A stretch of DNA of 64,000 bases, from assembly GCA_009773415.1 (NCBI GenBank), contig WSNO01000002.1, positions 1 to 64,000 of the forward strand, in the 5' to 3' direction. This stretch comes from Nitrospirota bacterium. GTDB lineage: Bacteria > Nitrospirota > Thermodesulfovibrionia > Thermodesulfovibrionales > Dissulfurispiraceae. The translations under genes were made by a program, and so were the position numbers. Shown piece by piece: positions 53,104 to 56,395 of the stretch. Positions within the stretch are counted from its first letter, which is position 1. Each line of letters opens with the position of its first letter. The notes below the pieces were generated by a model. It ran no database searches and was not told the origin of the DNA. It worked only from the letters and a program-made list of their open reading frames with translations.

Positions 53104-53220
53104 TTACTATCAAGCAAGAAGTGAGAAGTCAGAAGCAGAAAGTCAACAAAAGGACAAAAGAAAAGCTCTTTCTTTCGCTTTGCACTTCTTGCCTCTCGTT
53201 TCTCGCTTTCTTTATCAAAT

Positions 53221-53295: not shown

Positions 53296-53443
53296 CTTTT
53301 CCTTTCTGATTCCTCTTGACACGCCCGCGGATTTTTCGATAACGTAAAAGCAGTTAAAGAAGTGCCTGTAAAGGGGAGTAGCTGAACAGCGGTTATCGTC
53401 AGTACGGCCTGCCCGGCCCGGTGCCGCTCGGTTAGCAGCGCTA

Positions 53444-53496
53444 ACAAGCAAGACCTTTACCATGATGCCTTGTATCGTGGTAAAGGTCTTGCTTGT
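53444..53496 (+). promoter_or_regulatory. Long perfect hairpin in the htpX leader
   Basis: ACAAGCAAGACCTTTACCA (53444-53462) and its exact reverse complement (53478-53496) form 19 bp. The next six bases on each side also pair in RNA with one U-G, leaving a loop of about three bases. The structure ends 22 bases before the htpX ATG, just 5' of its AAAGGAGG site. Confidence 0.8.
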
Positions 53497-53518
53497 AAGA
53501 CCAAAGGAGGAGAGTTCG

Positions 53519-54367
53519 ATGAATACCATGAAGACCCTGATGCTCATGGGCCTGCTGTCGGTGATGTTGGTGTTTGCCGGAGGAATGCTCGGCGGCAAGA
53601 GCGGAATGACCATAGCGCTCATTATGGCCTTCGGTATCAACTTTTTTTCGTACTGGTTCAGCGACAGGATTGTGCTGAAGATGTACAGAGCCCAGCCGAT
53701 TACTGAGTCTGAAGCACCGGAGTTGTATGGCATGGTGCGGCGTCTTGCGCAGCGCGCGCAGCTTCCGATGCCGAAAGTCGCGATCATCAACGAAGACCAG
53801 CCGAATGCGTTTGCGACCGGCCGGAATCCGGAGCACGGCACCGTTGCCGTGACGACCGGACTTATGCGGATTCTTTCCCGCGAGGAACTTGAGGGCGTTC
53901 TTGCCCACGAACTTGCGCATATCAGGAACCGCGACATTCTGGTCGGCACCATAGCGGCAGCAATTGCCGGAGCAATAAGCTACCTGGCACAAATGGCGCA
54001 GTTTGCCATGATCTTCGGCGGTGGCAGGCAGGACGATGACGAGGGCGGAAGCCCGATCGGCATGATTGTCATGATGATTGTTGGCCCGATTGCGGCCATG
54101 CTTGTGCAGATGGCCATCTCCCGCTCCCGTGAGTATGGAGCAGACGCTACCGGCGCGGAGATTTGCGGCAATCCGATCTATCTTGCGAACGCTTTGCACA
54201 AACTGCAGATGGCATCGCAGCAGGTTCACATGCAGGCAAACCCCGCAACGGCGCACATGTTTATCGTCAACCCCCTGAGCGGCGGAGCCTTGATGAAGAT
54301 GTTCAGCACGCATCCTCCGATGGAAGAGCGCATCGCCCGTCTGAAGGCAATGCGCGCGGGAAGATAA
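53519..54367 (+). CDS. htpX: Membrane zinc metalloprotease HtpX (M48B)
   Basis: Inner-membrane protease that removes misfolded membrane proteins, partly overlapping FtsH. From [20 protein letters not shown] the 282-residue protein has two N-terminal membrane helices, [20 protein letters not shown], the zinc motif [15 protein letters not shown] (HExxH, about 137-141), two further membrane segments and the downstream [15 protein letters not shown] with the third zinc-binding Glu. AAAGGAGGAGAG precedes the ATG. ftsH follows, separated by a terminator. Confidence 0.96.
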
Positions 54368-54544: not shown

Positions 54545-56395
54545 ATGATGGAGAAAAAGGTTGGCTTTTCACTTGGTTACTTTCTGATTGCGTTTCTTGC
54601 GCTGCTTATCATTCAGAACTACTTTCTGTCCCGCACCGTTGCCCAGCTCAGCTACTCCGAGTTCAAGGTGCTGGTGAAGGAGCGGCTGATAAACGATCTC
54701 GAGATCCGCCAGGACACGATAGAGGGGAAGTTTGTCAAGGGCGCAATCGAGAGGATTACAGCTCTCAGGGGTGCGGATTCCAAAGAAAAAAGGATCACTC
54801 CCGAGATGACAACCTTTTATGTTGTCCGCATGGAGGACGGGGATCTTGTCAGGGAGCTCACGGCTGAAGGAATACGGTTCAATGCCCTCCAAGAGGCGAC
54901 ATGGCTCAGGGCGCTTCTTTCATGGGTGGTGCCGGTTGTCCTGTTCGTGGGGCTCTGGTTTTTTCTCATGAAGCGCATGGGGGCAGCGGGCGGAGGGCTC
55001 ATGGCGGTCGGCAAGAGCAAAGCCAAAATATACGTTGAAGGGGAGACAAAGGTAACGTTTGACGATGTTGCCGGCGTGGAAGAGGCGGAGGACGAGCTGA
55101 AAGAGGTTATCGAATTTCTCCGGAATCCGCAGAAGTTCCAGTCGCTCGGAGGCAAAATCCCGAAAGGGATACTGCTGGTCGGCCCCCCCGGCACGGGAAA
55201 GACGATGCTTGCCCGCGCGGTCGCCGGAGAGGCAAAAGTTGCCTTTCTGAGCATCAGCGGATCGGACTTCGTAGAGATGTTCGTCGGAGTCGGAGCTGCC
55301 CGTGTGCGGGATCTTTTCGCTCAGGCGGAGAAAATGGCGCCCTGCATTATCTTTATCGATGAGATAGACGCTCTCGGCAGGGCCAGAGGTATCAGCCCGG
55401 TGGCGGGAATGGACGAAAAGGAACAGACCCTCACCCAGTTGCTGACCGAAATGGACGGATTCGACACCAAGAAAGGCGTCATCATCATGGCGGCGACGAA
55501 CCGGCCGGAAATCCTCGATCCCGCTCTGCTCAGGCCGGGCCGGTTCGACCGGCATGTTGTTGTGGATCGCCCTGATCTTAAGGGGCGCGAGGAAATCTTC
55601 CGCGTCCATGCAAAGAAAGTGAAGATTTCCGATGATGTCGACATGAAAGTCCTCGCCTCGATGACCCCCGGAATGGCCGGGGCGGATATTGCAAATGTGG
55701 TCAATGAGGCCGCCCTTCTTGCGGTTCGCAAGAGTAAGAATGATGTGGCCATGAAGGAGTTCGAGGAGGCCATAGAACGCGTTGTCGCCGGGCTCGAAAA
55801 ACGAACCCGCGTCATCAGCCCTAAGGAAAGGGAACGGGTTGCATTTCATGAGATGGGGCATGCCATCGTCGCCAGCATGCTTTCGGGAACCGACCCGGTC
55901 CGCCGTGTTTCGATCATTCCCCGCGGCATTGCTGCGCTCGGCTATACCCTTCAGCTGCCGACGGAGGATCGTTTTCTGCTTACCAGGTCCGAGATGCTTG
56001 ATCGCATGACGGTTCTGCTTGGCGGCAAGGCTGCCGAGGAGCTGGTTTTCGGAGAAGCTTCCACCGGCGCAAAGAATGATCTTGAGCGTGCAACTGATAT
56101 GGCTACCGCAATGGTGAAGTCATACGGGATGAGCGAGAGGCTCGGACCGGTATCGTACGACAGGGCGCGGCCGAGGTTTCTTGATGTGCAACTGGGGGGC
56201 CAACCGAAAGAGTACAGTGAATATACGGCCAAAGAAATTGATGACGAAGTGCACGGGATATTGCGGGCGGCGTTGCAGAGATCGTCCGGCATTCTGGGCG
56301 CTCACAAAGAGCAGCTTGAAAGGATATCCCGCATTTTGCTTGAGCGCGAAGTTATAGACGGCGATGAACTGAAAAGTTTGCTCGACAGACCATGA
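54545..56395 (+). CDS. ftsH: ATP-dependent zinc metalloprotease FtsH
   Basis: Membrane-bound hexameric AAA+ protease for membrane and regulatory proteins. The 616-residue protein has two membrane helices (about 9-27 and 118-139) flanking a periplasmic domain. Walker A is [15 protein letters not shown], Walker B is [13 protein letters not shown], and the second region of homology has [20 protein letters not shown]. The zinc site is [12 protein letters not shown], followed by the third-ligand region [23 protein letters not shown] precedes a tandem ATG-ATG. TACAAT about 45 bases upstream may be its -10 box. Confidence 0.98.

Follow-up and report, generated by a model that had tools for sequence, protein, structure and literature searches.

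In the yybP-ykoY riboswitches of L. lactis and X. oryzae, Mn2+ stabilizes the P1.1 helix and the terminator is prevented (PMC11087558, PMC6754395), and a docking adenosine in loop L1 is known from crystal structures (PMC6754395). A review suspects that some yybP variants have changed metal specificity, which would account for targets at odds with Mn2+ sensing (PMC7266159). In B. subtilis, YqgP–FtsH membrane proteolysis protects against Mn2+ stress (PMC7231995), and the TerC proteins MeeF and MeeY are reported to co-purify with HtpX and FtsH (PMC10246235). Here, we describe a hairpin immediately upstream of the membrane protease gene htpX in the window, the 64-kb stretch of DNA analyzed in this study. 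The htpX mRNA very probably carries at its 5′ end a Mn2+-responsive yybP-ykoY riboswitch, of which this hairpin is the OFF-state arm.

A sequence-only reading of the window had called attention to a perfect 19-bp inverted repeat, predicted to extend in RNA to a stem of about 25 bp with a tiny loop and to end 22 bases before the htpX ATG. The perfect arms are present at 53444–53462 and 53478–53496, the hairpin ends 22 nt before the ATG (53519), and RNA folding gives a 25-bp stem closed by 3 nt; this stem contains two wobble pairs, U-G and G-U, rather than the single U-G pair reported. An equally good fold was found in none of 200 shuffles of the region (z = −6.9). When perfect inverted repeats were sought in the window (arms ≥14, loop ≤20), the one in this hairpin was the only instance, and arms reached a maximum of 9–10 in five base-shuffled copies of the window. 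The identification of the downstream gene as htpX was upheld by Pfam (Table 1).

Comparison of the htpX leaders of relatives, the nearest named of which are Nitrospirae/Thermodesulfovibrionales metagenome genomes, revealed a longer conserved leader, of which the hairpin is just the final portion. Upstream of the hairpin, these leaders conserve AAAGGGGAGUAGC ... CGUCAGCACGG ... GCCCGGU ... GUUAG..CUAAC AAGCAAGACCUUUACC, followed by the hairpin with its 3′ arm GGUAAAGG(UC) and, in relatives, a T run. Orthologous leaders keep the hairpin at the same position. The earlier reading was correct in treating this hairpin as a regulatory part of the htpX leader; the decisive element, a riboswitch aptamer, had been missed and lies directly upstream, outside the coordinates considered. 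We took the conserved blocks to resemble the yybP-ykoY aptamer. Across P1, P3 (with a 7-nt L3 bulge) and P4, 96.4% of cells are paired and double changes occur in 17 of 30 pairs. This covariation score was matched by none of 500 shuffles and dropped clearly when the partners were slid, and RNAalifold recovered the P1, P3 and P4 helices unprompted. L1 (GGGGAGUAGC) is invariant (28/28 leaders) and the L3 adenosine, which goes with the C-A core of this loop, is kept in 27 of the 28; in the window this residue is A53401, which in the alignment to E. coli alx occupies the place of the Mn2+-contacting adenosine (PMC6754395).

Table 1. Features of the htpX leader and the downstream gene in the window.
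Feature	Position	Strand	Details and basis
Probable promoter	53316-53343	+	TTGACA 53316-53321, 16-nt spacer, GATAAC 53338-53343; sequence
yybP-ykoY-type aptamer	53366-53462	+	Covariance model R1 (training set includes this leader), 82.7 bits, E 1.6e-19
P1.1 5′ strand GUAAAGG	53368-53374	+	Predicted ON-state partner 53454-53460
L1/P1.2 region GGAGUAGC	53375-53382	+	Invariant in aligned leaders; docking adenosine position per PMC6754395
P3 stem-loop	53387-53428	+	Covariation, alignment to E. coli alx, PMC6754395
Predicted metal-site loop L3, UCAGUAC	53399-53405	+	In P3; 7-nt bulge
P4 stem-loop GUUAG..CUAAC	53431-53445	+	Covariation
Shared switching strand GCAAGACCUUUACCA	53448-53462	+	P1 3′ side or hairpin 5′ side
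Putative OFF-state expression platform (terminator-type hairpin)	53444-53496	+	25 bp, loop CUU; fold, relatives
Anti-P1 strand GUAAAGG	53480-53486	+	Alternative pairing analysis
Degenerate U-tract UCUUGCUUGU	53487-53496	+	Relatives have U4-U7
Shine-Dalgarno AAGGAGG	53504-53510	+	Sequence
htpX, peptidase M48 membrane protease	53519-54367	+	Pfam PF01435, E 1.5e-38

A covariance model (R1) was trained on 17 htpX leaders alone, the window leader among them; independent support comes from its matches in E. coli and from the target genes described below. R1 matches the E. coli alx leader directly before alx (43.8 bits, E 4e-10) and the mntP leader directly before mntP (21.7 bits, E 9e-4), which shows, at the level of sequence and modeled structure, homology to the yybP-ykoY aptamer. 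The Rfam model RF00080 (gathering cut-off, 45 bits) gave no match on the window leader at gathering or permissive thresholds, and Rfam scans of the window yielded nothing beyond tRNAs and spurious hits to miRNAs or sRNAs. This silence carries little weight, because the known E. coli riboswitches also miss the cut-off (in the same test, mntP scored 41.6 bits and alx did not reach E 0.01). Below the cut-off, RF00080 picked up htpX leaders from G097 (25.8 bits) and two Clostridia (L094 and L095; 28.7 and 30.2 bits). Within the window’s own genome, the best RF00080 match is a second locus that R1 also picks. Most Mn2+ riboswitches of this lineage go undetected by RF00080.

The window leader lacks helix P2, with only ~4 nt between GUAGC and P3, and its aptamer is predicted to form a three-way rather than a four-way junction. 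Most of the htpX leaders have no P2; mntP has one, as do the leaders of htpX in a single related clade (G097, G169 and G171; CCC-UGAU-GGG or similar). Since P2 varies within orthologous leaders and is also absent in the E. coli alx fold, we did not treat it as class-defining. Of the features that mark the class, we found L1, the L3 adenosine, P1/P3/P4, competition between P1 and the terminator, and a metal-transport gene context; an RF00080 score above the cut-off and a strict four-way junction with P2 were not found. Among the other htpX leaders, L043 (as also L195) carries a large palindromic repeat in the terminator loop (GTAACGAGTGACAAG...), and the L3 of L043 is off consensus (TTCCCGCACC); this leader perhaps combines an inserted repeat with a decaying switch.

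The hairpin and the aptamer share one strand with two possible partners. For GCAAGACCUUUACC, the partner is GUAAAGG at the 5′ end of the aptamer in P1 (ON) and GGUAAAGGUCUUGC in the hairpin (OFF), and CCUUUAC at 53454–53460 is complementary to both GUAAAGG copies (53368–53374 and 53480–53486). Both pairings are shown by comparison: across 37 orthologous htpX leaders, P1 pairs are kept at 96.5% and anti-P1 pairs at 99.6%. The triple at the variable position reads G-C-G in 21 of these leaders and A-T-A in 4, and all three strands change together at this position between the window and its sister genome. Folding of the growing transcript predicts P1 up to ~53478 and the hairpin in place of P1 by 53484. 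A version of the switch that acts by sequestering the Shine–Dalgarno sequence was rejected, as this sequence lies outside any strong stem in the folds of both states.

Based on these comparisons, we propose a mechanism in which Mn2+ is inferred to be the ligand and to turn the switch ON. The aptamer would form during transcription of the leader, and Mn2+ bound between L1 and L3 would lock P1 (GUAAAGG/CCUUUAC) and block the start of the hairpin, so that RNA polymerase continues into htpX. When Mn2+ is lacking, the arm GGUAAAGGUCUUGC would capture the shared strand from P1 to yield the 25-bp hairpin, which would block htpX expression, in relatives by acting as an intrinsic terminator. In the window, where GC breaks the U-tract, we expect termination that is less efficient or takes longer, more leakage in the OFF state, or a block that depends in part on pausing, Rho or RNase. 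Transcription probably starts from the promoter listed in Table 1, which went unscored by a strict consensus scan; the sister genome has the same two hexamers, and several relatives show a TTGACA..TATAAC pair. An ftsH-like gene (54545–56395) lies on the same strand ~180 bp 3′ of htpX, and the riboswitch might reach this gene as well.

In nearly all relatives, the hairpin is, as read from its sequence, a normal intrinsic terminator: all of the other scored leaders carry a hairpin followed by a T-tract, with tail scores (T) of 3.8–5.3. The window leader is the single scored one without a T-tract (T at most 3.1). Where it has the degenerate U-tract, which reads TCTTGCTTGT at 53487–53496, relatives have UCUUUUUU or, as in the sister genome, U7. 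The GC in the window breaks the U-tract and extends complementarity to the GC of the aptamer, and the long, near-perfect stem arises because the U-tract is absorbed into the terminator stem via this GC. Owing to the poor terminator tail, termination in the window genome is uncertain; the broken U-tract may mean that the switch leaks, that the platform has changed, that the switch has partly decayed, or that the assembly is wrong here. The strongest competing explanation, unlikely but to be taken seriously, is that the riboswitch is decaying in the window genome, with the U-tract lost, no termination, and htpX effectively constitutive. The exceptional lack of a T-tract fits this explanation, as does a consensus scan that found no terminator-like site. 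However, the aptamer and both pairings are intact; where the stem has C-G for the sister’s U-A, all three strands have changed to match; and weak terminator scores persist at two stem ends (d 4.9 and 9.0).

TerC, GDT1/UPF0016 and P-type ATPases are usual targets of the yybP-ykoY class. R1 has 86 matches among 199 related genomes, 66 of which carry the motif; in 31 of these 66 it controls htpX directly. The downstream genes, taken as the longest ORF, are htpX (32 places, 31 genomes), P-type cation ATPase (22), beta-carbonic anhydrase (9), TerC (6), and GDT1/UPF0016, SPFH and UPF0182 (3 each); at 4 places there is no ORF before the contig end. A smaller gene comes first at some loci, namely a Zn-ribbon protein gene before the ATPase and GDT1 before TerC. 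The latter arrangement occurs at the second riboswitch of the window’s own genome (L152, G000:C26:50076-50170, minus strand), which precedes GDT1/UPF0016 and then TerC and has an intact T8 terminator; its L3, ACAUCCU, belongs to the other subtype, the one seen in E. coli mntP. Judged by these gene assignments, the R1 set is that of Mn2+ riboswitch targets plus htpX.

Several gene arrangements recur. The order riboswitch, small Zn-ribbon (TFIIB-type) gene, P-type cation ATPase gene is found at L171, L172, L155 and L178, and an SPFH/Band 7 protein gene lies directly 3′ of the riboswitch at L190 and L186. Beta-carbonic anhydrase (loci including L177, L205, L206, L208 and L209) is an unexpected target of a Mn2+ riboswitch; in several genomes, its riboswitch lies ~6 kb from an htpX gene with a riboswitch of its own. 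In the Paradesulfitobacterium class (Desulfitobacteriia), 40 of 82 genomes have motif matches. The first ORF is TerC-family-like at 11 of 13 inspected loci, which include one from another lineage (G201) and were called by eye from the sequence, without Pfam. HtpX directly follows the motif in G199, G200 and G243, and a TerC-like ORF and then htpX follow in G238, G225 and G275, with the same spacing in G239. At L219, L220 and L242, the riboswitch, a TerC-like ORF and htpX form an apparent single operon.

This gene set also bears on the identity of the metal. It is improbable that the htpX leaders are a yybP-ykoY branch that responds to some other metal or ratio of metals (e.g., Zn2+ or Fe2+/Mn2+), which would couple HtpX proteolysis, SPFH, TerC and carbonic anhydrase in one mismetalation regulon. 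Quite improbable, too, is a variant that senses another divalent ion, such as Zn2+, by the same switching mechanism. Such a variant would accord with the changed metal specificities suspected in the class (PMC7266159) and with the zinc association of htpX, carbonic anhydrase and Zn-ribbon genes, Zn2+ being the expected cofactor of HtpX and FtsH. However, the metal-site adenosine and the L3 sequence UCAnnAC match the Mn2+ riboswitch of E. coli alx, and R1 also picks the leaders of TerC, GDT1 and P-type ATPase genes, which point to Mn2+ as the ligand.

The earlier proposal of an RNA thermosensor or an RNase III-controlled stress-protease leader, to which a long stem before a heat-shock protease gene would be suited, is highly improbable. 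RNA thermometers of the ROSE or fourU type need the Shine–Dalgarno sequence in a marginally stable stem; here it lies outside the hairpin (53504–53510 versus 53444–53496), and the stem, at about −40 kcal/mol, is far too stable to melt at physiological temperature. Moreover, the relatives carry terminators and an aptamer. The other earlier suggestion, a palindromic mobile or repeat element, has a negligible chance of being correct despite the near-perfect palindrome, as several genome copies would be expected, a search of the 2.46-Mb genome found a single one (the other match being the palindrome’s own reverse strand), and orthologous hairpins occupy the same position. Elsewhere in the window, a long imperfect inverted repeat, purine-rich and then pyrimidine-rich, lies between tRNA-Gly and tRNA-Cys genes (53115–53212); it is single-copy, with a weak z of −2.0.

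Our literature search found no paper tying a yybP-ykoY riboswitch to htpX, carbonic anhydrase or Nitrospir*, although an earlier mention in the two founding papers of 2015 is possible. The aptamer class and its mechanism are already known; the htpX target and the invisibility of the lineage to Rfam appear to be unreported. With the htpX leaders, the targets of the Mn2+ class would come to include a protease for membrane-protein quality control, in two distant groups and sometimes within a TerC operon. This repeated pairing suggests an increase in membrane quality control at high manganese in some bacteria, and a Mn2+-ON htpX switch would fit such a response to manganese excess, in which HtpX presumably takes part. 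It agrees with the co-purification of TerC proteins with HtpX and FtsH in B. subtilis and leads to the testable claim that manganese excess is partly a membrane-protein problem.

The htpX leaders share with riboswitches of the L. lactis type the conserved blocks GGGGAGUAGC / CGUCA..AC / CGG / AGCAAGACC, L1 and L3, the position in the 5′ UTR, and a P1 strand that is also part of a downstream terminator hairpin. They differ in that they control htpX, mostly lack P2, and lie below or outside RF00080 detection; the window platform differs further in its broken U-tract and longer stem. E. coli alx resembles them in its R1 match, its L3 of the UCAnnAC type, and the absence of P2 in the model alignment and fold; unlike the window leader, it controls a gene for a TerC-family Mn2+ exporter and not htpX. 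In B. subtilis, the riboswitch regulates meeY, and the portion of the source cited here mentions none on htpX; the physical link between TerC and HtpX that it describes nonetheless parallels the riboswitch–TerC–htpX operons of Desulfitobacteriia (PMC10246235).
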